Source: Verrucomicrobiia bacterium (GTDB taxonomy: Bacteria > Verrucomicrobiota > Verrucomicrobiia > Verrucomicrobiales > DEV007). Taken from it: a stretch of 64,000 nt of DNA. Position 1 is the first letter of the stretch, and each line of letters starts with the position of its first letter. The notes beneath the pieces are model-generated. The model searched no databases. It saw only the letters and a program-made list of their open reading frames with translations, and was not told the origin of the DNA. Shown one piece after another: positions 5,907 to 24,108 of the stretch. The position numbers and the translations under genes were made by a program. Location: positions 1 through 64,000 of the forward strand of contig JAGRPB010000003.1 in NCBI GenBank assembly GCA_020439945.1. The letters run 5' to 3'.

Positions 5907-7367
5907 TCAGGCCAGGATATCGTGCTGCACCTTCGCGTCGCCGATCACGCCGATGAGGCGGTGGTTGAGACCCTGGAATGGGTAGGTGAACTGGTGGGCG
6001 TCCAGCCCGAGCTGGTGCAGCACGGTGGCCTGGAGATCGTGGACCGACATCTTGTTTTCCGCGACGCGGTAGCCGAATTCGTCGGTCTCGCCATAGCTGC
6101 CAGGTTTGATGCCGCCGCCCGCCATCCAGAGGGTGAAGCAGTGCGGATGGTGATCACGGCCGAGGAATTTGCTCCCATTGCGCTCCTCGTTCATCGAGGT
6201 GCGACCGAATTCTCCGGACCAGACCACCAGTGTGTCGTCGAGCAGGCCGCGCTGTTTGAGATCCTTCAACAGGGCCGCGATGGGTTGATCGATGTCGCGC
6301 GTCTTGTCCTTCAAGCCGATCGAAATGTCATTCGCCGGTCCGGTGCCGTGGAAGTCCCATCCGTAGTCGAAAAGCTGCACGTAGCGCACGCCTTGCTCGA
6401 CCAGTCGGCGGGCGAGCAGGCAGTTGTTGGCGAAGTTCTCCTCCCCCGGTTTGGTACCGTACATTTCATGAACCCACTCGGGTTCCTGCTTGATGTCCAT
6501 AACCTCCGGGACCGCGATTTGCATACGGTAGGCCAGTTCGTACTGGGCGATTCGACTGAGCGTTTCGGGATCTCCGACCTCGCGCATTTCGCGTTCGTTG
6601 AGTTTGCGGAGCGCATCGAGACCGCGTCGCCGGGATTCGCGGCTGAGTCCGTCCGGGTTGTTCACGTAGAGGACCGGATCGCCGTCGCTCCGACATTGCA
6701 CCCCCTGATAGAGCGCCGGCAGGAATCCGCTGCCCCAGAGCGCCTTTCCGCCGCTGGGATTGGTGCCACCGCTCAGGAGGACCACGAAACCGGGCAGATT
6801 CTCGCTCGGGCTCCCCAGACCGTAGGTGACCCACGATCCCATCGACGGGTAACCGAAGCGCGCTTCGCCGCAGTAGAGGAAAAGCTGGGCCGGCGCGTGA
6901 TTGAACTGGGTGGTGTACATCGACTTCACCACGCAGACATCGTCGACCACCGACTTGAACTGCGGAAGCAGCTCGGTCACCCAGGTGCCGGTTTCGCCGC
7001 AGCGTTCGAAATTCCAAGGCGTTCCCAGCAACTTGGGACGCCCCTTGATGAACGCGAAACGCTCGCCCTCGATCAGGCTCTCCGGGCACGGTTCGCCGCT
7101 GTGCTTCTTCAGTTCCGGTTTCCAATCGAAGAGATCGTGCTGAGGCGGGCTACCGGCCATGTGGAGGTAGATGACCCGCTTCGCCTTGACCGGCAGCGGC
7201 GGAATCTTCGGGGCCAGCGGATTGTCGAGCGCGGACGGCGGGGCCGGTGTCGAAGCCCCCAGCGACGCGAGCCGATTCAGCGCGATGGTGCCGAGTCCGA
7301 TCGTTCCGCCACGAAGCATCTGGCGTCGCGTGGCAAACTGGGCGGAAGCTTGGAGAATCGGATTCAT
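5907..7367 (-). CDS. DUF1501 exported protein (sulfatase-superfamily fold)
   Basis: 486 aa. The N-terminus carries a twin-arginine-type signal (TRRQMLRGGTIGLGTIAL, about residues 13-30). The body has the DUF1501 hallmarks: VIYLHMAGSPPQHDLFDWKP, an LLARRLVEQGVRYVQLFD block, VVWSGEFGRT and GRDHHP near the C-terminus. DUF1501 proteins belong to the alkaline phosphatase/sulfatase superfamily, but their activity is unknown. In Planctomycetes and Verrucomicrobia they are regularly encoded next to DUF1549/DUF1553 cytochromes, and here they form one minus-strand unit with the genes at 7389 and 8177 (gap of 21 bases). The protein is probably periplasmic and may work with the cytochrome-like partner on polysaccharide-derived substrates; that function is inference. 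Confidence 0.9.
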   Translation of the reverse strand: MNPILQASAQFATRRQMLRGGTIGLGTIALNRLASLGASTPAPPSALDNPLAPKIPPLPVKAKRVIYLHMAGSPPQHDLFDWKPELKKHSGEPCPESLIEGERFAFIKGRPKLLGTPWNFERCGETGTWVTELLPQFKSVVDDVCVVKSMYTTQFNHAPAQLFLYCGEARFGYPSMGSWVTYGLGSPSENLPGFVVLLSGGTNPSGGKALWGSGFLPALYQGVQCRSDGDPVLYVNNPDGLSRESRRRGLDALRKLNEREMREVGDPETLSRIAQYELAYRMQIAVPEVMDIKQEPEWVHEMYGTKPGEENFANNCLLARRLVEQGVRYVQLFDYGWDFHGTGPANDISIGLKDKTRDIDQPIAALLKDLKQRGLLDDTLVVWSGEFGRTSMNEERNGSKFLGRDHHPHCFTLWMAGGGIKPGSYGETDEFGYRVAENKMSVHDLQATVLHQLGLDAHQFTYPFQGLNHRLIGVIGDAKVQHDILA

Positions 7368-7388
7368 GGGAGGAAGGGAGTTGGGAAA

Positions 7389-8174
7389 TCAGGATTCCGG
7401 GCGGAATCGACCGACGATCAACGGGCGCTCGTTCGTGGTGTGAATTTGGGATCTCGCGGAAGTCGACCAGGTATAGCCCAGCAGGCGTCCGGTAATATCG
7501 GCGAGCAAGCGGAGATCGCCGCGACCCAATCCGTCATCGTCGCTGCCATCGGCGTTGGCGCCGTGACGCGAATCTCCCGAGCCGTGCGGCGAACGCGATG
7601 AATCGATCACACTCACATGCCACTCGAAAAGTCGCGGCGTATCCCAACGAAGGGGACGATCGACGAGTTCTTTCGGCCGAGGCCATGGAAGCGGCTTCGC
7701 GGTATCAAGTTCGTTCACCCGACGGGGCGGGCCATCGACGAGCATGACGTGACCGGTGGGAATCGCCTTGCCGGACCGGTAATCGATGACCAAAAAATCT
7801 CCGGGCCGGATCGCGTCGACTCGGTCGATTCGCTCGAACCTGCCAGAGTCACGCACCGCGGCAAACCATTCGTCCGCCTCCGGAGCCGCCTCGCCGAACA
7901 AAGCCTCGGCGGCCGCGTCATCGAGCCCATAGTTTTTTCGCAACAGGAGCGCTGTGAAAGACGAGCAGACACTGCGATTCGACGGGGCCGCTTCGTCCGC
8001 CCAGGCGATCCGGCTGGGAGAGGCGCTGTAGAGGTTCGTCTCCGGCGTGATCGCCGCCAACAAGGCCCGCGCGGTGGCGAGATGCGCGGGAACCAACTCG
8101 ACTTTCGGCTTCCCTTCTTCGGCGGAAACCGCGACCAGGCCACCAAGAATTACGGCGGCAATTTCGGAAAACAT
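7389..8174 (-). CDS. small exported protein, possible NlpC/P60- or CHAP-like fold
   Basis: 261 aa from the ATG at 8174, two bases after the stop of the upstream cytochrome gene, so translation is probably coupled. The first 20 residues (MFSEIAAVILGGLVAVSAEE) look like a signal peptide. A cysteine in RSVCSSFTALLL (about residue 72) and a later GHVMLVD histidine within a beta-rich block (FLVIDYRSGKAIPTGHVMLVDG) suggest a papain-like NlpC/P60 or CHAP arrangement of Cys then His. That assignment is tentative. The second half is Asp/Ser-rich with no recognised domain. Its place between DUF1553 and DUF1501 genes suggests a role in the same envelope system. Confidence 0.65.
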   Translation of the reverse strand: MFSEIAAVILGGLVAVSAEEGKPKVELVPAHLATARALLAAITPETNLYSASPSRIAWADEAAPSNRSVCSSFTALLLRKNYGLDDAAAEALFGEAAPEADEWFAAVRDSGRFERIDRVDAIRPGDFLVIDYRSGKAIPTGHVMLVDGPPRRVNELDTAKPLPWPRPKELVDRPLRWDTPRLFEWHVSVIDSSRSPHGSGDSRHGANADGSDDDGLGRGDLRLLADITGRLLGYTWSTSARSQIHTTNERPLIVGRFRPES

Positions 8175-8176
8175 CT

Positions 8177-11100
8177 TCACGATTTCGTCAGCACGGAGTC
8201 GAGATTGAGGAGAATATTTGCTACCGAGGTCCACGCGGCCAGCTCGGCGACATCGACACCCTCGGGCACGGCTTCGACCTCGCCGGTGGCCAGTTTTTTC
8301 GCTTCCTCCAACTGAGCACGATAGTGGGCCAGTTCTTCCGCCAGCAGGGCGTTCACGGTCTGCGTTTCTTCCGGATTCGGCGGACGCATCTGGACGAGAC
8401 GCAGCCCGTAATCGATCCGCGAGGCATCGTCCCCGCCGCCTTCGGCCAGAATCCGGCGGGCCAGCGCCTGGGCGATCTCGACATAGACCGGGTCGTTCAG
8501 CGTCACGAAGGCCTGTAGCGGGGTGTTCGTCCGAATGCGGCGCACGTTGCACACTTCGCGACTGGGCGCGTCGAAGGTCGCCATGCTCGGATACGGAACG
8601 CTTCGCCGCCAGAAGGTGTAGAGCCCCCGGCGATAGCGATCCTCGCCTTCGCTGGTCTTCCAATTCCGGTCAGCCCCGTTGAAGGCGGCGCGCCACATGC
8701 CCGGAGGCTGTGGCGGGTAAACGGACGGTCCGCCAACCTTTTTCGCCAGAAGCCCGCTCAGCGCCAGCGCCTGGTCACGCACCTGCTCGGCATCGAGACG
8801 AAATCGCGGGCCACGAGCCAGCAGCACATTCAGCGGATCGTTTTCAAACTGTTCCGGCGACGCTGAGGAATCCTGCCGATAGGTCGCCGACATCACGATG
8901 GTTTTCAGCAGCGCCTTCTGATCCCATCCGTTTTCCCGATACTCGACCGCCAGCCAGTCGAGCAACTGCGGATGACTCGGAAAGGTGCCCTGCGAACCGA
9001 AATCCTCCTCCGTCTCGACGAGCCCGAGGCCAAACAACTGCGCCCAGAGGCGGTTCACCGCCACCCGCGCCGTGAGCGGATTGGCCGGGTCCATCAGCCA
9101 CTCAGCGACACCGATCCGGTTTTCCGGCGCGTCTTTCGGAAACGGATGAAACGCCGCCGGCACGCCGTGGATCACCTTGTCGCCGAGGTCCATGAAATTT
9201 CCGCGCACCTGGATTCGCGTCTCGCGATGCTGCGCCGCGGGCAGCTCGGCCATCACCGGCACGGTCGGCGTCTTGATCGCGTCGCGCTTCTTCTGGAGAG
9301 AAGCAATCTCGGTCCTGATCTTCGACAGCGAGGGCGCGACACCCCGGAAATAGTCCGCCAGTTTCTTGGCTTCGGCCTCGGTTCTCTCGCTCTCGCCTTT
9401 GTCCACCAGACGGAGAATATCCGGCGGCAACTGTCCCCGCTTTGGCAGCGAGGGATCGCTAGTCAGGGAAATCCGGAATCGACCGAGCGTCAGCTGGCCG
9501 CCGTAGTTGTAATCGTGATTCAGAGTAACCGTCAGCTTGTCCCCGGCGGCCACTTCCACCGGCGCACCAAGCACAAAAACCGCTTCGTTCGGTTCGTTCT
9601 GTCGGGGTGTCACATCCCATCCGGCCAGATTTCGAGACACGGCGCCGGCCGCCGCGCTGACGGGATACTTGTCCGTCGAAAAATCGGCCGTTGCGGTCGC
9701 GAAATGCAGTTGCCGCTCGCCACTGAGCGCCCACTCGGCATTCTTTTCTGGAGCGCGTTGTCCGGTTTCCTCCCAGACCAATCTCCGTGCGCCGTCGAGC
9801 AGTTGAATCGTGTAGCCCTCGATCCGCGATGCGGTCCCTCCGTCGGTACGATTCCACAGCACAATCCGGTCGATCGGCACCTCGGAACCGAGGTCGACTT
9901 CCCACCAAGGGTTGGTTTCCTCCGCGGTATGAGTGGTCTTGTGTGCGCTGAAATTGCCATCCGTGATCCCGTCAATCGCATTCGAAGCCGGTCCTTCATA
10001 TCCGGTTGAAATCTGTTTCGCCGTTCCCTTCCGGGCCACGTTTTCCTTGCCGCTGAACACTTCGACCTCGGCGAGGTGGAGAAACTTCTTTTTACCCGGT
10101 AGCGTCACCCGGACGACGCGACCCTTCGGCGCGCGTTCGCCGGTGTCCAGCTGGGCGGCGAAACGATTGAGGAAAAAGCGTCCCTCCGGCGAACGCCCCG
10201 CGCCTCCGGCCGGATTCCGTGGGTCGGGAATCGTTTCGAGACGGAAACCGGTGATCGATCCCGAGAAACCGGGAGCGACCGAGAGTTGATAGGTGTCGTT
10301 TTTCGGAGAAGGCCCGCTGACGAACAGACTGCCGTCCGCTTCGGGAGTGATCGTGGCGCCTTTCAGCGAGGCCCGCTTGTCGAAGGACAAGGTCCGCCAG
10401 TCGCTCTTCCCACGGTACTGGGCTTCCCAGGCCCGGCGTTCCTCCGCCAGCGCGTTCGCATCGACCGCTTCCAGTTGCTGGTGCAGTTCATCGATCTGGG
10501 ACTGCAAGGCGATTCGCTTCTCGATTTCCGGCGTTCCCGGCACCGCGATGGTCGGCGCGTCATCGTTGGTGTCGGCATCGGCGGTCTGATTGAAGAAGTC
10601 GTAGAATCGATAGTATTCCGCCTGCGTGATCGGGTCGTACTTGTGGGTGTGGCATTCCGCGCAGCGCATCGTCAGCCCCATCCACACCTGGATCGTCGTG
10701 TTGACCCGATCTTTCACCGCCGCGACCCGAAACTCCTCGTTGTCCGTGCCGCCCTCCGTGTTGTTCATCGTGCTCCGGTGGAACGCGGTCGCGATCCGGT
10801 CCTCGACCGAGGCATCCGGCAAAAGGTCGCCCGCCAACTGCTTCAGTGTGAACTGATCGTAGGGAAGGTTGCGGTTCAGCGCATCGATCACCCAGTCGCG
10901 GTAGGCCCAGATGGTGCGCAGGTTGTCACTGGCGTAACCCATCGAATCAGCGTAACGCGCCAGATCCAGCCACGGCGCCGCCCAGCGCTCGCCGTAGGAA
11001 GGACGCTTCAGCAATTCATCGATCTTTTCCGACCAGAGGACGTCCCGGTCCGGTCCCGAGGCAGACGCTTTTTCCCAGGCGGAAACAAAAGCCCGCACTT

Positions 11101-11686
11101 CCTGAGGCTGCGGGGGCAGACCGGTGAGATCCAACGTTAGCCGGCGCAGCAGGATTTCCGGCGATGCCTCCGGGCGCGAATGCAGTCCTTCCTTCTCAAG
11201 CCGCGCCATCACGAAATGATCGATCGCGTTTTTCGCCCAATCGACTCCGGCATCGGCCGGTGGTTCCGGTCGGGTCGGTGGCACGAACGCCCAGTGTCGC
11301 TCGTATTTCGCTCCGGAATTGATCCACGCCTCCAACAGGGAAATCTCTTCCGCCTTCAGTTCATGTCCAGATTTTGGCGGCGGCATGAGCTCGTCAGGAT
11401 CCGCACTCTTGATCCGCGCCACCACTTCGCTCGCGTTCGCCTTTCCCGGATCGATCGCGCGATAGCCGCCCAGGTCCTCCGTCGCCCCTTCAAACGTATC
11501 GAGCCTGAGATCGGCCTTTCGTTTGTCCTCATCCGGTCCGTGACAGCGAACGCAATTCGTCGTCAGGATCGGTTTGATGTCCCGATTGAAATCGACCGAA
11601 TCCGCGGCCAGAGCGGTCGCGAACGGAAGCGAAACAACCACGGCCGCGCCTCGAAGCCACGGCATTCTGGAAGAAAAACGAAACAT
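8177..11686 (-). CDS. PSCyt1-DUF1549-discoidin-DUF1553 exported cytochrome-like protein
   Basis: 1169 aa from the ATG at 11686, chosen because it gives a good signal peptide ([20 protein letters not shown]) and the upstream frame does not look coding. After cleavage comes a planctomycete-type cytochrome c segment with haem motif CVRCH (about residue 43) and [10 protein letters not shown]. Then DUF1549 follows (about 130-340), then a discoidin (F5/8 type C)-like carbohydrate-binding insert at about 550-635 ([27 protein letters not shown]), and DUF1553 at about 860-1140. The family is abundant in PVC bacteria and is always exported; its enzymatic role is unknown. The discoidin insert points to a glycan substrate. 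It is the first gene of a three-gene minus-strand unit with the genes at 7389 and 5907. Confidence 0.88.
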
Positions 11687-11790
11687 GGAGGCAGGAAAAC
11701 ACAGGACAGCGCAGGCAAGACCCGCTGTCCCGACCAGCAAACTATCCCAGAAATCGCATTTTTAGGCAACGGCGCGGAAACGCCCCGTAA

Positions 11791-13354: not shown

Positions 13355-13939
13355 ATGCGAGTGATAGCCGGCAGCGCGGGCGGTCTGTCCCTGACCGTGC
13401 CCAACTCCGTGACGCGTCCCACGACCGATCGCGTTCGCGAGGCATTGTTTTCCAGTCTCGGGGAACGGGTCATCGAGGCGCGAATCCTGGATCTCTATGC
13501 CGGCAGTGGCGCCCTCGGCATCGAGGCGCTCAGCCGCGGCGCTGGCTCCGTCGTCTTCGTGGAGGAAAACGAGCGGGCCGCCCAGACCATTCGCGACAAT
13601 CTGGAGCGAACCCGGCTCCCGGCCGAGGTGCGGCGGATGAAGGTCTCCGCCTTTCTCAACGGTCTCGCGACCGGGGAGAACCGCGATCGCTTCGACCTCG
13701 TTTTTGCCGACCCGCCCTACGCTCGCGACGACCAGACCCGCGCGGAAATCGCGGACCTGCTTGCGTCGGAAGCGCTCGTTCGCAGCCTCGCGTCCGACGG
13801 GCTTTTCGTGCTCGAGGGCATGGACGGCGCGGCGTTGCCCCTGAATGCGAAGACGGCCCGGTGGACCGTGCTTCGCGAACGCCGCTACGGTGGCACCCGC
13901 CTCTTTTTTCTTTCGCCACTTTCAGGATCGCCGGAATGA
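13355..13939 (+). CDS. rsmD: 16S rRNA (guanine(966)-N2)-methyltransferase RsmD
   Basis: 194 aa, the usual family length. The N-terminal MRVIAGSAGGLSL and the RPTTDRVREALFSSL block are the RsmD signature. The SAM-binding loop is LDLYAGSGALGIEALSRG (about residue 45), and the catalytic motif is DPPY at about residue 122. It methylates guanine 966 of 16S rRNA in the 30S subunit. Its stop overlaps the start of waaA by ATGA, so the two are probably co-transcribed. Confidence 0.95.
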   Translation: MRVIAGSAGGLSLTVPNSVTRPTTDRVREALFSSLGERVIEARILDLYAGSGALGIEALSRGAGSVVFVEENERAAQTIRDNLERTRLPAEVRRMKVSAFLNGLATGENRDRFDLVFADPPYARDDQTRAEIADLLASEALVRSLASDGLFVLEGMDGAALPLNAKTARWTVLRERRYGGTRLFFLSPLSGSPE

Positions 13940-15291
13940 ATCGCTCTCTCGTCTACGTCATCTACAATCTGCTGCTGCCTCTGGCGCTCCTGGTCGGATT
14001 TCCGCGGTTCGTGATGAAAGGGCTCCAGCGTGGAGGGCTGGCGCGGAATTTCCGGCAACGGCTCGGTCTCTACCAACCCGAGGTGAAACGGCGACTCGCC
14101 CGCGAACGGAACCTGTGGATCCACGCCGTGAGCGTCGGCGAGGTGCTGGTGGCGGTGAAACTGATTCACGAGCTGCGCCGCCAGGATCCCGGGGTGGGCA
14201 TCGTGCTCTCGACGACCACGACGACCGGATTCCGCGTCGCGGAAGAGAAAACCAAAGACGCCGCCGACGCTGTCACCGTGATTCACAATCCGGTCGATCT
14301 GCCCTGGATCACCGCCGCCGCGCTTCGCCGCATCCGGCCCGAGCGGCTGGTGCTGGTGGAGGCCGAAGTGTGGCCGAACCTCGTGCTTCAGGCCCGCCGG
14401 CGCGGCATTCCCGTGGTGCTGGTGAATGCGCGGCTCTCCGACCGTTCCGAGCGGCGGTTCCGGAAATTCGGCGCCCTGACGGCTCCGGTCTTTTCGCTCA
14501 TTGATCGGGTCGGGGCGCCATTCGAGATCGACGTGGATCGCTGGGCCGGGCTCGGTGTTTCACTGGACCGCATCGAGCTCACCGGCAGCGTGAAATTCGA
14601 TGAGACCCAGGGCGAGAGACCGGATTTCCAGGTTGCCGAACTGAGGAACTGGCTCGATCAGAACGGCTTTCCCGCGAAGGCTCGGATCCTGCTCGCCGGC
14701 AGCACCCATGCCGGGGAAGAGGCTCTGATCGGCCGGGTTTTTCTGCGACTTCGAGAACGCTTCCCCGATCTTGCCTACGTCGTCGTCCCGCGACATGCCG
14801 AACGGGCCGCCACGGTGGAGACCGACCTCCGCGAGGCGGGGTTCGCGCCCGTGTTGAAACAGCCGGTGCGCGCCACGAACCCCGAGAGTGCGAGCCCCGA
14901 AAACGGTTATCCCTGCTGGATCGCCAATACGACCGGCGAACTGCGGGCCTGGTATTACCTCTCCGATTTCGTGGTCGTCGGCAAAAGCCTCCTGGGCCTG
15001 GGAGGACAGAATCCCGTCGAACCCGTCGTCGCCGAAAGGCCCACCATCGTCGGACCACACATGGAAAACTTTCGTCCCATCGTCGCGGACCTGGTTCAGG
15101 CGGGCGGATTGATCCAACTGGAAGAGGGCACCGAGGCGCATCTCGTAGCGGCACTGGAGCACCTGCTCTGCGATCCCGACGCCGCCGCCAATCTGGCGAA
15201 TCACGGCGGCGCTGCCCTGGCACGACACCGCGGAGCCGCGGCCCGGACGGCGACGCTCATACTCGGATCGCGGAGCGGTTTTTCGGCCTGA
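13936..15291 (+). CDS. waaA: 3-deoxy-D-manno-octulosonic acid (Kdo) transferase
   Basis: 451 aa. The ATG overlaps the rsmD stop. An N-terminal hydrophobic segment (VYVIYNLLLPLALLVGFPRF) anchors the protein at the inner membrane. GT30 features follow: LWIHAVSVGEVLVA (residues about 57-70), LSTTTTTGFRVA, EAEVWPNLV and, in the C-terminal half, GGQNPVEPV and GPHMENF. It adds Kdo from CMP-Kdo to lipid A precursor, so the organism makes LPS. It also contains NARLSDRSERR and LAGSTHAGEE, both typical. A short non-coding stretch and tRNA-Glu follow. Confidence 0.95.
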   Translation: MNRSLVYVIYNLLLPLALLVGFPRFVMKGLQRGGLARNFRQRLGLYQPEVKRRLARERNLWIHAVSVGEVLVAVKLIHELRRQDPGVGIVLSTTTTTGFRVAEEKTKDAADAVTVIHNPVDLPWITAAALRRIRPERLVLVEAEVWPNLVLQARRRGIPVVLVNARLSDRSERRFRKFGALTAPVFSLIDRVGAPFEIDVDRWAGLGVSLDRIELTGSVKFDETQGERPDFQVAELRNWLDQNGFPAKARILLAGSTHAGEEALIGRVFLRLRERFPDLAYVVVPRHAERAATVETDLREAGFAPVLKQPVRATNPESASPENGYPCWIANTTGELRAWYYLSDFVVVGKSLLGLGGQNPVEPVVAERPTIVGPHMENFRPIVADLVQAGGLIQLEEGTEAHLVAALEHLLCDPDAAANLANHGGAALARHRGAAARTATLILGSRSGFSA

Positions 15292-15411: not shown

Positions 15412-15486
15412 GACCCGTTCGTCTAGCGGTTAGGACTCCGCCCTTTCACGGCGGCAACACGGGTTCGAGTCCCGTACGGGTCGCCA
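15412..15486 (+). tRNA. tRNA-Glu (UUC anticodon), CCA encoded
   Basis: A 75-base cloverleaf folds well: acceptor arm GACCCGT (15412-15418) pairs with ACGGGTC (15476-15482), the anticodon stem CCGCC/GGCGG encloses loop CTTTCAC with anticodon TTC, and the T-arm carries GGTTCGAGTCCC. The 3' CCA (15484-15486) is encoded. A terminator follows directly. The tRNA marks the left border of the low-G+C island, a common integration position. Confidence 0.96.
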
Positions 15487-15665: not shown

Positions 15666-15891
15666 AATGATTGAGGATGGCAGGAGGAATCCGGGTCGAC
15701 GTCGGCTTCCCAGGCCGCCAGCTTCTCTTAAAGTTCTTTCACCTTGTCTAGCCGGGTCGTGAAAGAGACTATTTTGTTCGCCTTGGTCGGTTGCGAGCCT
15801 GAAAAGATGCTCCACCATGTCGTCCTGCACCTACTTCCAATCGCTTTCATCCGACGGCGATTGTGATCCACCCGCCAGCAGAAAACGCGAT
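15666..15891 (-). pseudogene. decayed 3' end of a sulfatase gene
   Basis: On the minus strand this aligns over about 220 bases with the 3' end of the intact sulfatase at 22678-24108, sharing blocks such as CACCATGTCGTCCTGCAC and CCACCCGCCAGCAGAA. Identity is moderate by eye, with small indels and a lost stop, so it is not a recent copy. Translated, MQDDMVEHLFRLATDQGE matches VQDDMVELLFNLRADEGE of the intact protein. The matching region begins and ends abruptly, and nothing else of the gene remains. It is either the remnant of a sulfatase paralog disrupted by island entry, or a passenger fragment. Confidence 0.75.
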
Positions 15892-16016: not shown

Positions 16017-17066
16017 ATGTCTTTTCGGCTCTCAAACACAATTGTCCACAAAGCCTTCCTCTCATTTGCTTTGCTCACATCAACTGCCCCGACGATTCTG
16101 GCATTTCCATTCTCGACTTGGGACACAAATCGGGATGGAAAAATCGATATCAACCGGGAATCTCCTCCCGCCAATATTCGCAGAACCCTTAAGGAATACG
16201 ATACCGACAACGACGGGTTCCTCAGCAAAAAAGAGTATACCCACCTCCTTGACTCTACAATTCCAAACACCATTCAACCCGAATTCAACCTTCCATACTC
16301 GAACGAACAAGAAATCCAAAGACTTGATATCTACCGCTCGAAACAAAACCGTAAACCACGCCCCCTACTTATCTTCATTCACGGAGGCGCTTGGAACTTG
16401 GGAGACAAGGCCTCGGCCATTACATGGAATCTCCCAACCGTGGCAGAAAAAAGCGGCTATGTTCTTGCCTCGGTTAACTTCCGCTCTATACAGTCAGCGC
16501 CGTGGCCTGGACCGGCCGCGGACATAATGTCCGCAATAAATTGGTTGTCAACGAACGGGGAATCCTATGGCTACGATGGCTCGCACATCACCCTGTTTGG
16601 AGTTTCATCAGGAGCACACTTGGCCGCCTTTTTATCCCATCAGGCTCAAATACCCCAGAAAACGCCCAATCCTATTGCCTCAACAATCTTGGTTTCGGGG
16701 GCATTTGACCTGAACGCCTACATCGAGGAAACAGAAGATCTTGATCATGAAAAAAACACGTCTCCACTCTACCAGTTCTTTCGCCTTCCCCCTAGACGTT
16801 CAGCGCCTCTCCTCCGAGGCGCCTCTCCTCAGAACATTCCTCCCCAGTCTAACTTTTCCTCGCTCGTGGTTCACGGCGATCAAGACGCTCTTGTTTCTCC
16901 CCAACAGTCCATCCGTTACTCCGATTTTCTGCGACACCACGAACTTGACGCCGATCTAAAAATCCTACCAGGGATCGGCCACACCGTAATCTCCTCCGAT
17001 TCGTTCGTTAGTCTTATTATAGGATTCCTTATCCGCCAACGTAAGTCAGCAGGTCAAATAGAATAG
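16017..17066 (+). CDS. exported alpha/beta-hydrolase (esterase-like) with two EF-hand motifs
   Basis: 349 aa. An N-terminal hydrophobic segment (FLSFALLTSTAPTILAF, about residues 14-30) suggests export. Two EF-hand calcium loops follow closely: DTNRDGKIDINR (about 36-47) and DTDNDGFLSKKE (about 61-72). The rest is an alpha/beta hydrolase of the BD-FAE/carboxylesterase type: oxyanion HGG (about 121), nucleophile GVSSG (Ser198), aspartate in HGDQDALVS and histidine in GIGHTVI. It probably removes or transfers ester-linked groups outside the cytoplasm. It lies 42 bases ahead of the MBOAT gene on the same strand, so it is likely the first member of the island operon. Role as an editing esterase for the acylation system is inference. 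Confidence 0.85.
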   Translation: MSFRLSNTIVHKAFLSFALLTSTAPTILAFPFSTWDTNRDGKIDINRESPPANIRRTLKEYDTDNDGFLSKKEYTHLLDSTIPNTIQPEFNLPYSNEQEIQRLDIYRSKQNRKPRPLLIFIHGGAWNLGDKASAITWNLPTVAEKSGYVLASVNFRSIQSAPWPGPAADIMSAINWLSTNGESYGYDGSHITLFGVSSGAHLAAFLSHQAQIPQKTPNPIASTILVSGAFDLNAYIEETEDLDHEKNTSPLYQFFRLPPRRSAPLLRGASPQNIPPQSNFSSLVVHGDQDALVSPQQSIRYSDFLRHHELDADLKILPGIGHTVISSDSFVSLIIGFLIRQRKSAGQIE

Positions 17067-17108
17067 AAAGAGGAAAAGACCCAAGGATCACTCAATCTCC
17101 CCTCCGAA

Positions 17109-18593
17109 ATGCTTTTTAATTCACTCCAATTTCTTCTGTTCTTCCTGCCCGTTACTTTACTGATTTTCCATTTTGGACCCAGTCGACATTTTAAAATCAT
17201 AACACTTCTTGGATCATCTCTTGTCTTCTATGCCTATTGGGACGTTTCCTACCTCTTCCTACTAGTTTCTTCGATCCTATTTAATTTTGGAGTTGCCAAA
17301 TTCCTGAGCCGCCACCGGTCGAAAGGCCTCCTATGGTTCGGCATCTTGGCCAACTTGGCCTGCCTTGGATACTACAAGTACTGGGGTCTATTTCTGGGCA
17401 CGATTAACAGCATCACCTCTTTCGACTTCAAGATTGCATCAATCACGCTCCCACTCGCAATCTCATTTTTCACTTTTCAACAGATATCGCTACTCATCGA
17501 TTCATACCATCAACGAACAAAGCCAGCGAACCTGTTAAACTACGCCACCTATGTGTCATTTTTCCCCCAACTTATTGCCGGCCCCATTGTCCGCTTCACC
17601 GATCTCGGTGTTCAATTGGCCACGGCTACCCTTCGCCCAAACCGTGAATCCCTAATTTCCGGATTCACCATTCTGATTATCGGACTATTCAAAAAAACCG
17701 CCATTGCCGACTATTTTGGCGGATTGAGCCGCCCAATTTTTTCTTTCATCGACTCAGGCTACACCCCTGGAGCCGGAGAAGCCTGGTGGGCCAACGCCAC
17801 TTACGCCGTTCAACTTTACTTCGATTTTTCCGGCTATTCTGATATTGCAATTGGCCTCGCTCTTCTTTTCGGTTTACGTCTGCCAATCAATTTTCTCTCC
17901 CCTTACAAGGCTACCAGCATTGCGGATTTCTGGAAGACTTGGCACATCACTCTCACGGCGTTCTTTACTCAGTATCTCTATTTACCGATTGCTCTTCGAA
18001 CGAGGATTCACTCGCTGCTTGGACACTCTCTCCTCACAATATTCGTCATGTCACTCGTGGGCCTCTGGCACGGGGCCAGTTGGAATTTCTTAATCTGGGG
18101 ATTTATCCACGGTGCGTATCTAACGGTGTCGCGTTTGTTGCCCAAACCCGCCAATAGGGTTACGTCCGCAGCGCTTAAACAAACGCTCATTCTCCTCGGG
18201 CGTGCGAAGGTGTTTGCTCTCCTGGTTCTTTCCTATCCTTTCTTTCGCATCGACCAATTCTCCCGGGCCAAGGAAACCCTTTTTTCCATGTTTGGATTTT
18301 ATCCTTCTCGATCAGAGAGCCGATTTTTCCCGAGCCCAGAAACACCCCTGGAAGTTGCTATCTCACCACTCCAAGTCATCTTTTTCGGGCTCGCCTTACT
18401 TATCTTGTGGTACGGACCTTCTTCGTCGTTTCTCGCGGGTTACAACGAAAAATCCGATAGACCTTTGCCACCGTTTGCATCGGACAACATTCGCCTTGCG
18501 ATCGCTTCAATCGTCCTCGGAATCCTGCTTGCAATTTCCATCATCAACATAATCGTGGGCGCTGAAAGTGAATTTCTCTATTTCCAGTTTTAG
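17109..18593 (+). CDS. AlgI-type MBOAT O-acyltransferase
   Basis: 494 aa and strongly hydrophobic with about 11-12 membrane segments. MBOAT/AlgI landmarks are present: FFPQLIAGPIVRF (about residues 155-167), LYFDFSGYSDIAIG, DFWKTWHITLTAFFTQYLYLP, and the catalytic-histidine motif MSLVGLWHGASWNFLIWG (His about 321). AlgI and DltB both use an inner-membrane MBOAT to pass an acyl group across the membrane to a glycan. This protein is closer in its motifs to AlgI (polysaccharide O-acetylation) than to DltB. A plausible SD (AGAGGAAAAG, ending about 30 bases upstream) is distant. The next gene overlaps its end by 26 bases. Confidence 0.93.
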   Translation: MLFNSLQFLLFFLPVTLLIFHFGPSRHFKIITLLGSSLVFYAYWDVSYLFLLVSSILFNFGVAKFLSRHRSKGLLWFGILANLACLGYYKYWGLFLGTINSITSFDFKIASITLPLAISFFTFQQISLLIDSYHQRTKPANLLNYATYVSFFPQLIAGPIVRFTDLGVQLATATLRPNRESLISGFTILIIGLFKKTAIADYFGGLSRPIFSFIDSGYTPGAGEAWWANATYAVQLYFDFSGYSDIAIGLALLFGLRLPINFLSPYKATSIADFWKTWHITLTAFFTQYLYLPIALRTRIHSLLGHSLLTIFVMSLVGLWHGASWNFLIWGFIHGAYLTVSRLLPKPANRVTSAALKQTLILLGRAKVFALLVLSYPFFRIDQFSRAKETLFSMFGFYPSRSESRFFPSPETPLEVAISPLQVIFFGLALLILWYGPSSSFLAGYNEKSDRPLPPFASDNIRLAIASIVLGILLAISIINIIVGAESEFLYFQF

Positions 18594-19509
18594 GCTCCTT
18601 CTTTTTGGCCTCGGAACCGGCTTTTCCCTCACGATCGCGCTTTTTTTCGGGTCGTCGGAATTCGTCGTCCGAAAAAAGGTAATCCCTAATGAAAATTTTC
18701 TGGATCACCTCAAGCTTCTCCAAGCGGGAGTTCCGAAAGCGATTGTCTTAGGAGATTCCTACCTCGCCAATGGATTTATTGGCGCTCCCGGCTACCTGAA
18801 TCTTGCCTACCCAGCAAATAATATTCACGATATCAAATACGAATTCGACAAGATTCGCGATCTTTCTCGCCTGCAAGTCGTAGTCCTGCAGGCAAGCCCC
18901 GCGCTTTTAAAAACTAACGAAAGTTCACGAAGCTCCCGCGCATTGGACAACGTGGGTTATCACTTACACGAATATCTTGGCTTCTATTCTCTGCTCCCGA
19001 ATTTCCGCCCCTACCTCATCAACTATCTAAAGATGGCTGCTAGGGGAAAACGATTCTCGAGGAAGACGGAATTAAACGAATTTGGCGCCCAGATCCACGA
19101 TTCCGTCATGTCGCCCAGTTCTCTCGGTTTCTCTCTAGAAGTTCAGCAGGCTGTCGCTAGAACCGTCCCCCGCAGGTCTCGAGATCAAAATTCGAAAGCC
19201 TACCGCGAATTCGTCGAAAGACTGGCAGAGGAAAGTATTTCTGTCTACCTTGTCGTTCCCCCGACTTCAGAATATTACCTCGAACAAGCCGGCGAAATGA
19301 GTGGCTATGCCGAATGTTCGGCATTTTTCCGTCAACTTTCCAGTCAAACTGGCTTCCCTTTACTCGATTACTCGGGTTCGTTTACCGACCCCCTTCTCTA
19401 CCATTCGTGCGATCATCTCAACCGAGAAGGAGCAGTTCGTTTTACAGACGACTTAATTGCCACCATCGAGAAGAGCCAATCGCTAGTAGAGAATCCTTAT
19501 CATGAGTGA
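18568..19509 (+). CDS. membrane-anchored SGNH-like protein (DltD/AlgJ-class)
   Basis: 313 aa, GTG start inside the MBOAT gene (26-base overlap). Residues 8-28 form one signal-anchor helix, so the body should lie outside the cytoplasm. It carries an SGNH block I, VLGDSYLANG (Ser64), and a C-terminal block V-like DHLNREGA. The usual Asp three residues before the His is Ser here (HSCDHLN), with an Asp directly before the His, so catalytic competence needs testing. This is the same type of partner as DltD with DltB or AlgJ/AlgX with AlgI, which accept the acyl group and move it to the polymer. An 8-base overlap joins it to the adenylation gene. Confidence 0.75.
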   Translation: MNFSISSFRLLLFGLGTGFSLTIALFFGSSEFVVRKKVIPNENFLDHLKLLQAGVPKAIVLGDSYLANGFIGAPGYLNLAYPANNIHDIKYEFDKIRDLSRLQVVVLQASPALLKTNESSRSSRALDNVGYHLHEYLGFYSLLPNFRPYLINYLKMAARGKRFSRKTELNEFGAQIHDSVMSPSSLGFSLEVQQAVARTVPRRSRDQNSKAYREFVERLAEESISVYLVVPPTSEYYLEQAGEMSGYAECSAFFRQLSSQTGFPLLDYSGSFTDPLLYHSCDHLNREGAVRFTDDLIATIEKSQSLVENPYHE

Positions 19510-21118
19510 TCCCCATTGCCTTTCCCAGCGACTTCGGGATTCATTTGACCGTAACTCCCAAGCGCCTTCGATTCTCGCCAACGGTTCCTCGTGGTCCTAC
19601 GCCGATCTGTCATCTCTCGCAGACGCCGTCAGGAAACCGCTTCTCGACTTACCCCAAGCCCCGGTCGCCATTTTTGCCGATCGTTCCTTTTCGGCATTCG
19701 CGTCGATCGTTGGAACGTCAATCTCCGGGCGGCCCTTCGTCCCCCTGAATCCAGCATTTCCAGACGAGCGCAATGCCGAGATCATACGAAGAGGATATGC
19801 ACGATATGCACTGGTTGAAAAATCACTGCTTCCAAAGTTCTACCAGCTTCTAAGAACACTATCTGACGTCGACTTCGATCACTCAAAGCCGGGCGAAATT
19901 CGATCACTTTCGCTTGGAATTGATCTCGAACTTTGTCGTATCCCCACTTCCGCGGAAAGAGACGCCGGAGGGAGTCCCCATGAACTTTCGGACTCCGCAT
20001 ACATCTTATTTACCTCCGGAAGCACAGGCAAGCCCAAGGGAATCTCAGTCTCTCGAGCCAACCTCTCCGCCTATCTCGATCATGCGGTCGAAGCTTTCCC
20101 CGTCGGTGTCGGAAACCGGGCCTCTCAGATGTTCGACCTTACCTTCGATCTGAGTATCCACGACATTTTCGTTACCTTTCTCAGCGGAGGTGCGTTGGTG
20201 GTTCCCACCAAGGTCGATAGATTTTCACCAAGCACCTTCATCAATCGACACCAGATCACTCATTGGTTCTCAGTTCCATCAGTTCTTACCATCCTTGACA
20301 AACTCCGTGCCCTTAAACCGGGCAGTTTTCCTTCAGTAAAACAAAGTCTATTCTGCGGTGAAGCCCTGCCCTCCGGTCTCGCCGACAAGTGGAGGGCCTC
20401 AGCTCCAAACTCGTCTGTGTTCAATCTTTACGGCCCCACCGAAGCCACGATCGCCGTTTCCTCGTTTGAGATAACATCATCTTCGATGGACAATTCTCCC
20501 GGCGTCATTCCCATCGGCCAACCTTTCCCGAATCATCAATTTTTGCTCAGGACGAACCAAACTGAAGCGTTGTCAGAAACTATTGGTGAACTTGTAATCA
20601 CGGGTCCTCAAGTCACTGCCGGCTATCTCGACGACGTCCAACGCTCCTCCCAATCCTTTGTTCAGACACAGATCTCGTCTTTTCAATCATATCGTACCGG
20701 CGATCTCGCGAGCGAGGATACCGAAGGATACTTTCACTTCCACGGAAGAATCGATTCACAGATTCAATTACGCGGCCATCGGGTCGAGATTCTCGAAGTC
20801 GAGTGCGCCCTGAAGGACGCCGTTGAGAGCGCTCATAATATCGTTGTTCTACCTGAATTCGGCGAAGATGGTTTGGCTTCCGACCTCATTGCGGTTTTTG
20901 AAACTTCCGAAGGCCTATCGGAAGATCAATTTTCCTTAGCCCGCCTCAGGGAACTCCTGGGTGACACTCTTCCCGAATACATGCTTCCTTCGAAGACCGT
21001 TGTCATCGATTCCTTCCCCCTGAACTCAAACGGTAAAATTGATCGAGGTAAACTCTCCAACATGATCAGCGATCACTATGAAGACAAGGCGCGAGAAAAT
21101 TCAGGATTTCATTCTTGA
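19502..21118 (+). CDS. DltA-like amino-acid-adenylating enzyme
   Basis: 538 aa, with all core adenylation motifs: A3 FTSGSTGKPKG (about 168-178), A4 FDLSIHDIF, A5 NLYGPTEATI (about 307), A7 YRTGDLA (about 396), A8 GRIDSQIQLRGHRVE and A10 lysine in NSNGKIDR (about 510). The pocket segment LFCGEALP matches FCGE of DltA, whose cysteine is reported to help select D-alanine over L-alanine; FDLS at A4 is also DltA-like. There is no fused carrier or condensation domain, so it should activate a small amino acid and load the carrier encoded by the next gene, which overlaps it by 41 bases. Cytosolic. Substrate (D-Ala, Gly or another) is inferred, not shown. Confidence 0.88.
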   Translation: MSDPHCLSQRLRDSFDRNSQAPSILANGSSWSYADLSSLADAVRKPLLDLPQAPVAIFADRSFSAFASIVGTSISGRPFVPLNPAFPDERNAEIIRRGYARYALVEKSLLPKFYQLLRTLSDVDFDHSKPGEIRSLSLGIDLELCRIPTSAERDAGGSPHELSDSAYILFTSGSTGKPKGISVSRANLSAYLDHAVEAFPVGVGNRASQMFDLTFDLSIHDIFVTFLSGGALVVPTKVDRFSPSTFINRHQITHWFSVPSVLTILDKLRALKPGSFPSVKQSLFCGEALPSGLADKWRASAPNSSVFNLYGPTEATIAVSSFEITSSSMDNSPGVIPIGQPFPNHQFLLRTNQTEALSETIGELVITGPQVTAGYLDDVQRSSQSFVQTQISSFQSYRTGDLASEDTEGYFHFHGRIDSQIQLRGHRVEILEVECALKDAVESAHNIVVLPEFGEDGLASDLIAVFETSEGLSEDQFSLARLRELLGDTLPEYMLPSKTVVIDSFPLNSNGKIDRGKLSNMISDHYEDKARENSGFHS

Positions 21119-21869
21119 TTCGATGGCGAGCAGACCTGATCTGCCGACCGACCAAAACCTTTCACTCCTCGACTCGGGGCTGTTCGATTCGTTTTCCTTC
21201 ATTCAATTATTGAATCAGATTGAAAGGGAGTTTTCAGTCACGATCGATTTTGCATCCTACCCTCCGGAGGAGTTAACCTCATTACAGGGACTGGCCACTA
21301 TCGTAGAAGAAGCGGTAGTCGATTTTGTGGAAGGCAACTCCGGTTCCGGTCCCGACTCGAATTCATCCGTCCCAAGAGAAACCTTTCTCCTTGAACCCTC
21401 TCACCCTAATTGGCCAGAACTTGCTGACCTGTTTCGGAATATGTATGAGGAGTTCCGCGAGCTGGGACTGCAGCTTCCTCTGCGCCAAGGTGGAGAATCG
21501 ACGTGGTTGAGCAACCTTGAGAAATCATCTTCCGCTCTCTCCCCTGTTGTCGGGATTTGCGATGGAAACGACGAACTCGTCGGGTTTGCGCAGGGCGCCG
21601 TTAAGTTCTTACCCGCTTACCTGGAAGGACAAACAGCTGGCGAAGTGCTATATCTTTACGTTGCCCCGGATGCCCGAAACCTTGGATTGGGCCGTGCTCT
21701 GGCCAACTCCCTCATTTCAAAACTCTGGGATGGGAAGGTGCACTCCGTCGAACTAAAGGTCATTTCGGGCAATATTGCGGCTCAGGCGTTCTGGAAATCA
21801 CTGGGATTCAGGGAAGAAATCATCCAATACAGAATGTTGGAGCGCGAAAGCAATCCACTGACCGAATAG
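21078..21869 (+). CDS. acyl-carrier (DltC-like) domain fused to GNAT acetyltransferase
   Basis: 263 aa. Residues 1-85 form a four-helix carrier domain with LLDSGLFDSFSFIQLL; Ser38 in FDSF is the likely phosphopantetheine site. After a Gly/Ser-rich linker (about 86-100) comes a GNAT fold: VLYLYVAPDARNLGLGRALA holds the acetyl-CoA loop RNLGLG, and the C-terminal AAQAFWKSLGF block is also typical. DltC is normally a stand-alone carrier of about 80 residues, so the fusion is unusual. A simple reading is that the amino acid loaded on Ser38 is N-acetylated while bound, giving an acyl donor for the MBOAT; this is inference. The gene overlaps the adenylation gene by 41 bases and closes the operon. 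Confidence 0.85.
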   Translation: MKTRREKIQDFILDSMASRPDLPTDQNLSLLDSGLFDSFSFIQLLNQIEREFSVTIDFASYPPEELTSLQGLATIVEEAVVDFVEGNSGSGPDSNSSVPRETFLLEPSHPNWPELADLFRNMYEEFRELGLQLPLRQGGESTWLSNLEKSSSALSPVVGICDGNDELVGFAQGAVKFLPAYLEGQTAGEVLYLYVAPDARNLGLGRALANSLISKLWDGKVHSVELKVISGNIAAQAFWKSLGFREEIIQYRMLERESNPLTE

Positions 21870-21929: not shown

Positions 21930-22637
21930 GGAAGAAGGCAGCAGCCAAGCGTCAAAGATGGGATTACCGGATGCTGGCCGAGTCTCTACGGCGAGAAGGA
22001 TTCACTGACAGCCAAAGGCGGACCTTTCGCGTCTACCGGGAGGAAGGGCGCCAAGTGCATATACAAAAGAAGCGCCAGGGCGGCGCTCTGGCGGGCAAGA
22101 AACCCGGGCCTTCGAACCACCACAATGATCGCTGATCGATGGGCTTCATGAGCGACCGAATCGCTGGCGGTCTTCGGATCCAGACGTTGAACGTTTTCGA
22201 TGATCACACGCGGGAGTGCCTTGCCATTTAGGTCGATACTTCGTGAGTGGGCATCAAGTCTTCCGCGCTTTGGATCGGTAGGTGGGCGAACAAGGACATC
22301 CGAAGCGGATCACTACCGACAACGGACCCGAGTTCACCTGCAGAATTCTGGACCGATGGGCCTATGAGCACTTCGCTGACCTACAGTTCATCCAGCCGGG
22401 CAAGCCTTTCCAGAATCCTTCGTCGAGAGCTTCAACAAAACCATGCGCATCGAGTGCCTCAACGAACCTTGGTTTCTGGACCTTGAAGGTGCCCAGGAAC
22501 TCCTCGAAACCTGGCGGATTGATTACAACACCGAACGGCCACACAGTTCACTCAAGGGAGTGACTCCGGGGGAGTTCACGGTCGCTGCTCAGACTCCGCT
22601 CCGGGCCTCATTCGGTGCGAGCCTCCCGAGCGCTTGA
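21930..22637 (+). pseudogene. decayed IS3-family transposase (orfB) relic
   Basis: Pieces of an IS3 orfB product appear in order but in different frames: an HTH_21-like block (KRQRWDYRMLAESLRREGF), LNVFDDHTREC with the first catalytic Asp, ITTDNGPEFTC with the second, FVESFNKTMRIECLN with the Glu, and the C-terminal DYNTERPHSSL. In-frame stops occur at 22133-22135 and in the codon after CLAI (about 22229), and at least two frameshifts follow, so it is inactive. No orfA and no terminal inverted repeats were recognised. It marks the right side of the island, just before the intact sulfatase. Confidence 0.88.
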
Positions 22638-22677: not shown

Positions 22678-24108
22678 TCAATGAATCAAAATCGGAGGCG
22701 GAACCCGATCCACCTCCGCCTCCCACGCGGCCAGCTTTTCCTTCAGCTCCTTCACCTTGTCGAGCCGGTCGTAGTAGAGATTTTCGCGCTCTCCTTCATC
22801 GGCCCGGAGGTTGAAAAGCAGCTCCACCATGTCGTCCTGCACATACTTCCACTCGCCCTGCCGGATCGCTTTCATCCGGCGGCGGGTCCGGTCCACCCGC
22901 CAGCAGAAGACGCGATTCAGGACCGGTTCCTGGTCTCCACGGAGAATGGGAAGCAGGTCGATGCCGTCCATGGGGTGATCCTTGAACTGCGGAACTCCCG
23001 CCGCCGCAAGGATGGTGGCAGTCAGGTCCATGGTGATCGCGGGTTGCGCCGACACCTCGCCGGCGGGCAGCCCACCGTCCGGCCAACGCATCAGGCAGGG
23101 AACACGGATTCCGCCTTCCCAAAGCGTTGTCTTGTGATTGAAAAACGGCCCGTTGTCGGAGAAGCGCTCGCCGCCGTTGTCGCTGGAGAAAATGATGAGC
23201 GTGTTGTCGAGAATCCCCTTCTCCTCCAAGGCGGCGAACATTTCTCCGACGCCCTGGTCGATGGACGCCATCATCTTCGCATAACCCGCCCGGGTGCCAT
23301 CGTTCTTGTTCTCATTCGTGTAGGTCTGGGTCGGATCTCCCGGGACGTGGTAGGGATGGTGCACGGCGTTGTAGGGCACGTAGAGGAAAAAGGGGCTGTC
23401 GGATTCCTCCCGGATATAGCGCACGGCCCGCTCGTTGATGAGGTCGGTGATGTAGCCCTCGGCCGTGGTCATCTCCTTCTTCTCGTAGAGCTGCTTCATG
23501 CCGCCGAGGTAGTAATATTTGTAGTAGTCGCATTGCCCACCGATGATGCCCCAGAACTCGTCGAAACCGTGTTCGATCGGGTTGTATTCCGGCTTGAATC
23601 CCAAGTGCCACTTCCCGTAGATGGCGGTGCCGTAGCCGTGGTTTTTCAAAAGCGGAGTCAGGTGGTAGTCCTGCGGAGCCAGCCCCATCGTGAAGGGCTC
23701 CTCCACCTCGACCAGCTTCCCGTCGACGCGCTTGGCCTCCTCCGAGGTTAGGCCGATCGCCCACTCGATTCCCGTGCGTTGTTGCCAGAGTCCGGTCAGG
23801 AAAGCAGCCCGCGTGGGGGAACACACCGGTGCGCTCGCGTAGCAGTCGGTCAACCGCACACCCTCACTCGCGATGCGATCAATGTGGGGCGTCTCGATGT
23901 CCTTCGATCCCATGCAACCGAGATCGGCCCAGCCCATGTCGTCAACGAGCAGGAAAATGATGTTGGGACGATCTTCCTTCTTCTCCTGTCCGTTCGCGGC
24001 CGGAGCGTGACTGAGCACCAAGAGGGGCACCGCCACTGCCGCGAGGCTCGCGGGTCGAATCGAAAATAGATGGAGCAGAAGAAACCGGGTCGCGCGCGTG
24101 ATCGTCAT
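22678..24108 (-). CDS. exported type I sulfatase (formylglycine-dependent)
   Basis: 476 aa with a signal peptide (SLAAVAVPLLVLSHAPAANG, residues 21-40). The sulfatase signature is complete: NIIFLLVDDMGW metal ligands (about 50-60), the formylglycine site CSPTR (Cys96), GKWHLG (about 165), and FSSDNGG (about 309) with the later metal ligands. It hydrolyses sulfate esters, probably of sulfated polysaccharides, outside the inner membrane, after Cys96 has been converted to formylglycine. Divergent from the gene at 24291. A decayed paralog end lies at 15666-15891. The kinase gene at 31277 carries an FGE-like domain, but whether that domain matures this sulfatase is unknown. Nothing looks broken. 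Confidence 0.93.
   Translation of the reverse strand: MTITRATRFLLLHLFSIRPASLAAVAVPLLVLSHAPAANGQEKKEDRPNIIFLLVDDMGWADLGCMGSKDIETPHIDRIASEGVRLTDCYASAPVCSPTRAAFLTGLWQQRTGIEWAIGLTSEEAKRVDGKLVEVEEPFTMGLAPQDYHLTPLLKNHGYGTAIYGKWHLGFKPEYNPIEHGFDEFWGIIGGQCDYYKYYYLGGMKQLYEKKEMTTAEGYITDLINERAVRYIREESDSPFFLYVPYNAVHHPYHVPGDPTQTYTNENKNDGTRAGYAKMMASIDQGVGEMFAALEEKGILDNTLIIFSSDNGGERFSDNGPFFNHKTTLWEGGIRVPCLMRWPDGGLPAGEVSAQPAITMDLTATILAAAGVPQFKDHPMDGIDLLPILRGDQEPVLNRVFCWRVDRTRRRMKAIRQGEWKYVQDDMVELLFNLRADEGERENLYYDRLDKVKELKEKLAAWEAEVDRVPPPILIH

Follow-up and report, generated by a model that had tools for sequence, protein, structure and literature searches.

We analysed a window of 64,000 nt from a Verrucomicrobiia bacterium (GCA_020439945.1, contig JAGRPB010000003.1, positions 1–64,000, forward strand) and characterized a set of five plus-strand open reading frames (ORFs) at 16017–21869. 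The ORF list confirms that all five are intact and overlapping or tightly packed, as an earlier note on this DNA had described, and they encode an esterase or hydrolase, an MBOAT-family acyltransferase, a membrane-anchored SGNH protein, a stand-alone adenylation (A) enzyme and a carrier protein fused to a GNAT domain (Table 1). A 42-base gap separates the end of the hydrolase gene from the start of the MBOAT gene, and the successive genes from MBOAT to carrier–GNAT overlap by 26, 8 and 41 bases. Each of the five protein classes is backed by Pfam, the SGNH class weakly, and the catalytic residues listed in Table 1 are all present. The earlier description of one operon with the functional classes of the Dlt system in an organism that bears lipopolysaccharide (LPS) is supported, and waaA/KdtA at 13936–15291 is verified (PF04413). 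A promoter scan of the region found fewer sites than in shuffled sequence and was uninformative. Our preferred reading, to which we assign a probability of roughly 0.55, is that the operon directs O-(N-acyl)aminoacylation of a surface glycan, with AlmEF-type activation feeding a PatAB-type MBOAT–SGNH exporter and with N-acylation by the GNAT.

Table 1. Genes of the operon and features at the edges of the island, in window coordinates
Feature	Coordinates	Strand	Basis or remarks
Esterase/hydrolase	16017..17066	+	EF-hand and BD-FAE/Abhydrolase_3; probably secreted
MBOAT acyl exporter	17109..18593	+	PF03062; C-terminal FLYFQF; His279, His321, His334, Tyr491
Membrane-anchored SGNH (DltD/PatB-type) transferase	18568..19509	+	GTG start; DltD-like; Ser64, His283; N-terminal helix
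AlmE-like stand-alone adenylation enzyme	19502..21118	+	TIGR01733, pocket code, tree
Carrier–GNAT fusion	21078..21869	+	PF00550 and PF00583; phosphopantetheine Ser38; RxxGxG motif
tRNA-Glu (TTC)	15412..15486	+	ARAGORN; left edge of low-GC island
Transposase (rve integrase-core) scrap	22282..22563	+	PF00665 23.8 bits, partial, cut-off 32.6 unmet; right edge of island
Degenerate direct repeat, left flank	15691..15891		Decayed copy of the sulfatase gene end at 22704–22916; pieces D1–D3, 76–87% identical

Amino acid activation and the carrier–GNAT fusion

The A enzyme scores 182 bits against Pfam AMP-binding, matches the general adenylation-domain model TIGR01733 with 292 bits and misses the DltA equivalog TIGR01734 by a wide margin (291 bits versus a cut-off of 560). 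Among solved structures, AlmE (4oxi) scores 235 bits versus 207.5 for DltA (3e7w); LgrA totals are higher but are summed over two domains, the better of which gives 164. We scanned an alignment of the subfamily over 84,980 species genomes and collected 80 loci (L numbers), and used the A enzyme of the Vibrio metoecus locus, which is near-identical to 4oxi, as the AlmE reference. In a FastTree phylogeny the window enzyme, AlmE and the collected loci split from DltA and from nonribosomal peptide synthetases (NRPSs) of the phylum with 98% local Shimodaira–Hasegawa support. The ten positions of the window pocket code read DLHFLCLIAK, a code found identically in about half of the 80 loci, and seven of nine positions are shared with AlmE (DLHLFCLIA) versus four of nine with Bacillus subtilis DltA (DLMTMCTVA, read by eye from a sequence verified against 3e7w). 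Code positions are assigned by GrsA numbering. Tree and pocket code both place the enzyme in the AlmE clade, apart from DltA. Stand-alone A enzymes of the same phylum (L010, L012 and L022) were considered as operon relatives and rejected, as they group with NRPS enzymes and DltA and have no MBOAT match alongside.

AlmE activates glycine and can mis-activate D-alanine without handing it to AlmF (PMC12930378). In DltA, L-alanine is disfavoured by the cysteine at code position 301 (PMC4176424). Because the window enzyme has the clade and code of AlmE, and has Cys301 in common with DltA, its cargo is predicted to be most likely glycine, with D-alanine second. The earlier note had called the enzyme DltA-like; that label does not survive these comparisons, and D-alanine as the default cargo falls with it.

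The fifth gene, previously read as a carrier protein, does encode a carrier but is not a simple one. Residues 1 to ~78 form the carrier domain (PF00550, 24.5 bits), and a Ser/Gly-rich linker joins it to a GNAT domain at residues ~100–263 (PF00583 Acetyltransf_1, 50.3 bits) with the motif RNLGLG. Priming of the carrier is possible since the host genome has two phosphopantetheinyl transferase (PPTase)-family genes, one of which adjoins an adenylation frame of NRPS size. In relatives carrier and GNAT are separate genes, neighbours in more than ten loci: a GNAT gene adjoins the A and carrier genes in 17 loci by sequence, and in L096 by Pfam, and lies immediately after the carrier in about ten. Of these loci, the window is the only one with the two fused. 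The idea of N-acylaminoacylation, raised in the earlier note without notice of the GNAT, becomes likelier with its presence.

These data bear on an unlikely but credible alternative, in which the export route is the same but free glycine or D-alanine travels uncapped by the GNAT and gives a cationic glycyl or D-alanyl ester, which would reduce the charge of the surface as the Dlt and AlmEFG products do. AlmE and DltA both deliver free amino acids (PMC12930378, PMC4176424), Cys301 fits an enzyme of this kind, and the Omnitrophota and Acidobacteriota loci described below combine A enzyme, carrier, MBOAT and SGNH with no GNAT detected. Set against this, the covalent fusion of the GNAT to the carrier in the window, and its recurrence as a neighbour of the carrier elsewhere, argue that the GNAT acts on the carrier's cargo.

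The collection may also hold other branches of this activation module. In L056 (10773–11651), L059, L053, L063, L076 and L079, from Bacteroidota and others, A–carrier or A–carrier–GNAT genes are followed by a gene for an N-acyltransferase of the AAC(3) type (Antibiotic_NAT), which suggests a cytoplasmic amide-forming branch. In L061 (7144–8373), L060 (10126–11046) and L070 (6095–7027), members of the A subfamily have genes for a luciferase-like monooxygenase, an AurF N-oxygenase and a formyltransferase as neighbours, probably in uncharacterised pathways acting on a carrier-bound small amino acid.

The MBOAT–SGNH pair and its recurrence in other phyla

The MBOAT scores 99 bits against its Pfam model, matches only DltB in the Protein Data Bank (3e-23) and misses the DltB equivalog TIGR04091 (136 bits versus a cut-off of 375). 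Its own C-terminus, FLYFQF, is a hexapeptide of the FxYxxF type, whose tyrosine carries the acyl group in PatA and which in the Dlt system sits on DltX (PMC12148441). Since this shuttle peptide is built into the MBOAT, no DltX would be needed. The corresponding motifs of relatives are FIYFQF in L094, FLYWKF in L096, and VMYALF, LMYALF or MLYRLF in Acidobacteriota, and the tyrosine and final phenylalanine are constant across these carrier-linked MBOATs. A structure model reached a predicted local distance difference test (pLDDT) score of 70.5, with the C-terminal tail unsure. By motif and model scores the protein is a PatA/AlgI-type MBOAT with a built-in shuttle, in agreement with the earlier assignment to the AlgI rather than the DltB type.

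The SGNH protein scores 20.7 bits against DltD, short of the curated cut-off of 22.7, and its Ser64, His283 and Gly288 are invariant among eight relatives. A Foldseek search with the low-confidence model returned SGNH esterases and DltD with weak E-values of 0.001–0.02. Several Acidobacteriota SGNH relatives, like the window protein, have no Asp at the DxxH place.

A true DltABCD system performing D-alanylation would account for the same four functional classes, for the weak matches of MBOAT and SGNH to DltB and DltD models and for the shared Cys301, and we nonetheless regard it as highly improbable. The equivalog cut-offs for DltA, DltB and DltC are all missed (the carrier scores 22 bits against the DltC model versus 68), the A enzyme lies outside DltA in the tree, the shuttle is fused to the MBOAT and not carried on DltX, and no TagF-type polymerase (PF04464) was found in the ~90% complete host genome, LtaS-type synthases not being part of this search.

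The co-occurrence search proposed in the earlier note found A enzyme, carrier, MBOAT and SGNH together in three lineages: Myxococcota and Omnitrophota, in both cases within glycan clusters, and Acidobacteriota. In the myxococcal locus L096 the set is NeuB, MBOAT, an SGNH-like protein (7140–8195, identified by eye and alignment), carrier, A enzyme, GNAT and a glycosyltransferase. In the Omnitrophota locus L094, glycosyltransferases precede A enzyme, carrier, MBOAT and a GDSL-like SGNH protein, and a probable glycosyltransferase gene comes after them. An MBOAT and an A enzyme also occur together in eight Acidobacteriota loci, mostly within a few kb of each other and mostly with a GDSL-like protein between, and in several a carrier gene follows on the opposite strand; neither these loci nor the Omnitrophota locus had a detected GNAT. 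An MBOAT is thus present in 10 of the 80 loci, and three lineages with an MBOAT remain when related loci are counted once. Genomes of the host family carry one or two MBOAT genes per ~5 Mb, and by our estimate chance would place about half of one MBOAT in 80 stretches of at most 18 kb. Because the four genes recur in three other phyla, their association, as read from gene content, is not due to chance. L057 has in addition a PHB-type esterase gene, which directly follows the A enzyme. The loci with A enzymes of highest identity, L045 and L046, were rejected as relatives of the whole operon, the two minus-strand neighbours in L045 being one without a family and one HAMP protein, neither MBOAT nor SGNH; the neighbours in Vibrio tubiashii and Solidesulfovibrio are ATP-grasp/MFS and AAC(3) genes, with no MBOAT.

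The glycan clusters around L094 and L096 speak against a further alternative, which we hold to be very improbable, in which A enzyme, carrier and GNAT make a small metabolite of the N-acyl amino acid or siderophore-like kind and the MBOAT and SGNH proteins act on that metabolite or are unrelated to it. Also against it, the island in the window, by Pfam, has no condensation, thioesterase or small-molecule export gene. Its support comes from the luciferase-like monooxygenase, AurF, formyltransferase and methyltransferase genes that neighbour other members of the A subfamily.

Comparison with MBOATs of the host family identified a candidate marker of how these proteins are fed. All 30 host-family MBOATs sampled, read in batches of 10 and 20 with gene context viewed for some only, have a P[LM]GG[NS]R/Q loop after FWxxWH (once as SLGGNR), and none of the 11 carrier-linked MBOATs, the window protein included, has it; solved DltB sequences also lack the loop in the aligned region. 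This loop is an empirical marker of our own, and the hypothesis that it separates carrier-fed from acyl-CoA-fed MBOATs has some support from these counts. The host-family MBOATs nearest to that of the window have no A or carrier gene in the stretches fetched, several lie beside an SGNH-like gene (by eye), and the window MBOAT attaches loosely to these A-less proteins in the tree (85/84), which suggests that an A-less MBOAT–SGNH pair was recruited into the operon.

That kinship also fits a quite unlikely alternative, in which the GNAT, with the aminoacyl-carrier as its donor, acylates an amine in the cytoplasm, for instance an amino sugar, and the MBOAT–SGNH pair is an ordinary acyl-CoA-fed O-acetylation module housed in the same operon. 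The nearest host-family MBOATs belong to exopolysaccharide-type pairs without A enzyme or carrier, and MBOAT genes are absent from many A–carrier–GNAT loci, in some of which an N-acyltransferase of the AAC(3) type takes their place. Two observations run the other way: MBOAT and SGNH accompany A enzyme and carrier in Myxococcota, Omnitrophota and Acidobacteriota, with no GNAT detected in the latter two, and the loop shared by the sampled host-family MBOATs is missing from that of the window.

A horizontally acquired low-GC island

The five genes have a GC content of 0.47–0.51 versus about 0.62 in their surroundings, and a GC content at third codon positions (GC3) of 0.51–0.55 across all five versus 0.73–0.82 for most neighbours; the operon is the 6-kb stretch of lowest GC in the window. 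Searches of 388 genomes of the phylum recovered no carrier–GNAT relative, only GNAT-domain matches to other proteins; 38 near genomes held no SGNH relative beyond the window itself; and neither protein had a match in plasmids. The phylum sample held no A enzyme of comparable closeness (best other match 190 bits), and most loci of the collection gave E-values near 1e-90 for the A enzyme in a small search of their own. We conclude that the operon is a horizontally acquired island.

A tRNA gene and a transposase scrap mark the two edges. A tandem repeat of the tRNA-Glu 3′ end was considered as an attachment site and rejected, since no second copy was found within the window. The sulfatase-end repeat on either side of the island could be a mediator of insertion or a relic of a sulfatase tandem. 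Two flanking genes have ordinary GC: on one side that of a minus-strand protein of 1187 aa at 8177–11740, which by eye resembles a PSD1-type planctomycete cytochrome protein, and on the other that of a sulfatase (PF00884) at 22678–24108.

Proposed pathway and comparison with known systems

From the observed gene content, domain identities, catalytic residues, recurrence in other phyla and AlmE clade, we infer each reaction of the pathway, together with its cargo, acyl group, acceptor and esterase step. A host PPTase would prime the carrier, and the AlmE-like enzyme would use ATP to activate a small amino acid, most likely glycine, and load it onto the phosphopantetheine of Ser38. The fused GNAT would then acylate, most likely acetylate, the amino acid on its nitrogen while it is tethered to the carrier as a thioester. 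At the cytoplasmic face the MBOAT would receive the acyl group from the carrier, and on the far side hand it to Tyr491 of its own shuttle peptide, from which Ser64 of the anchored SGNH protein would accept it for transfer to a hydroxyl group on a surface polysaccharide or on the glycan of LPS. A polysaccharide acceptor is favoured because L094 and L096 sit in glycan clusters. The esterase (PF20434 125.6 bits, PF07859 67.9, EF-hand PF00036 32) has a hydrophobic N-terminus, read from sequence, and is probably secreted; by analogy with Ape1 in the PatAB system, it may remove the modification, or it may be an unrelated carbohydrate esterase.

Several observations weigh against this pathway. The presumed substrate of the GNAT is its weakest link, and among relatives GNAT and MBOAT occur together only in L096, whose GNAT is distantly related. 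The window A enzyme sits on a long branch and has no firm position inside the AlmE clade. The MBOAT is divergent and has lost two otherwise conserved arginines (FWKTWH, FFTQYLY), and the loop correlation was noticed post hoc, with eight of the 11 carrier-side cases from one Acidobacteriota clade. In the SGNH protein His283 is preceded by S-C-D, which puts the Asp off its usual DxxH place, and the model (mean pLDDT 50) is too poor for triad geometry. The operon has no glycan-assembly gene.

Extending the pathway to the relatives, we tentatively propose, at somewhat less than even odds, that at least four phyla have envelope-acylation machines that form a class of their own. In these, AlmEF-type glycine activation and optional GNAT capping on the carrier would supply a carrier-fed, shuttle-fused MBOAT and SGNH pair that attaches glycine, free or N-acylated, by ester bonds to exopolysaccharide or LPS. 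The earlier interpretation is supported for the operon, its functional classes, the MBOAT type and the recurrence, and unsupported for the DltA-like enzyme and the D-alanine default; it did not include the GNAT fusion, the shuttle motif, the horizontal origin (GC3, tRNA-Glu, transposase scrap) or AlmEFG, the described system closest in activation. The operon offers a concrete pathway, open to experimental test, by which aminoacyl esters could be placed on the surface polymers of Gram-negative bacteria, together with a candidate marker in the MBOAT sequence for carrier-fed versus acyl-CoA-fed members. Its carrier–GNAT fusion would allow capping to be assayed with a single protein.

In activation, the operon resembles Vibrio cholerae AlmEFG, which places glycine on lipid A: the stand-alone A enzymes fall in one clade and differ little in pocket code, and both systems have a separate small carrier and a Gram-negative host. 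The transferase of that system, AlmG, is of the LPLAT type (PMC3783018), whereas by Pfam none of the five operon proteins is; the window operon would instead use the MBOAT–SGNH pair for its cargo, and its carrier bears a GNAT. With DltABCD(X), which places D-alanine on teichoic acids, the operon shares A enzyme, carrier, MBOAT and SGNH classes in one operon and a presumably carrier-fed MBOAT. The systems differ in the A enzyme, in the shuttle, which is fused to the window MBOAT with no DltX gene, in the extra GNAT and esterase, and in the host, which is LPS-bearing with no TagF-type gene detected.

In export, the operon resembles PatAB/Ape1 and AlgI-type pairs, which likewise have an MBOAT with a fused FxYxxF motif followed by an anchored SGNH transferase, PatAB also with an esterase in the operon, but it differs in having an A enzyme and carrier and in lacking the GG[NS]R/Q loop of the sampled host-family MBOATs. 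A 2025 account describes shuttle-fused MBOAT–SGNH pairs as lacking a carrier, evidently because they use acyl-CoA, and assigns carrier feeding to Dlt (PMC12148441). If true, our proposal would break the rule that shuttle-fused MBOATs use acyl-CoA, widen MBOAT–SGNH cargo beyond small acyl groups to include amino acids in activated and perhaps N-capped form, and provide a candidate means of forming glycine esters on the glycans of Gram-negative bacteria.

Another arrangement of these parts occurs in plasmid-borne exopolysaccharide/sulfotransferase loci of Roseobacter (L040:7953–10688 and L042:7905–10760), which share the A subfamily and carrier and end in a domain that is SGNH-like by eye and has no Pfam match. 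These differ from the window operon in being one polypeptide with no GNAT, and no MBOAT is annotated or recognised nearby. Within the open-access literature, which leaves many journals outside its scope, we could not find a described system of A enzyme, carrier, GNAT and MBOAT. Every part is known and the combination is new to us within that literature: a shuttle-fused MBOAT joined with probable carrier feeding, here and in the relatives from three further phyla.

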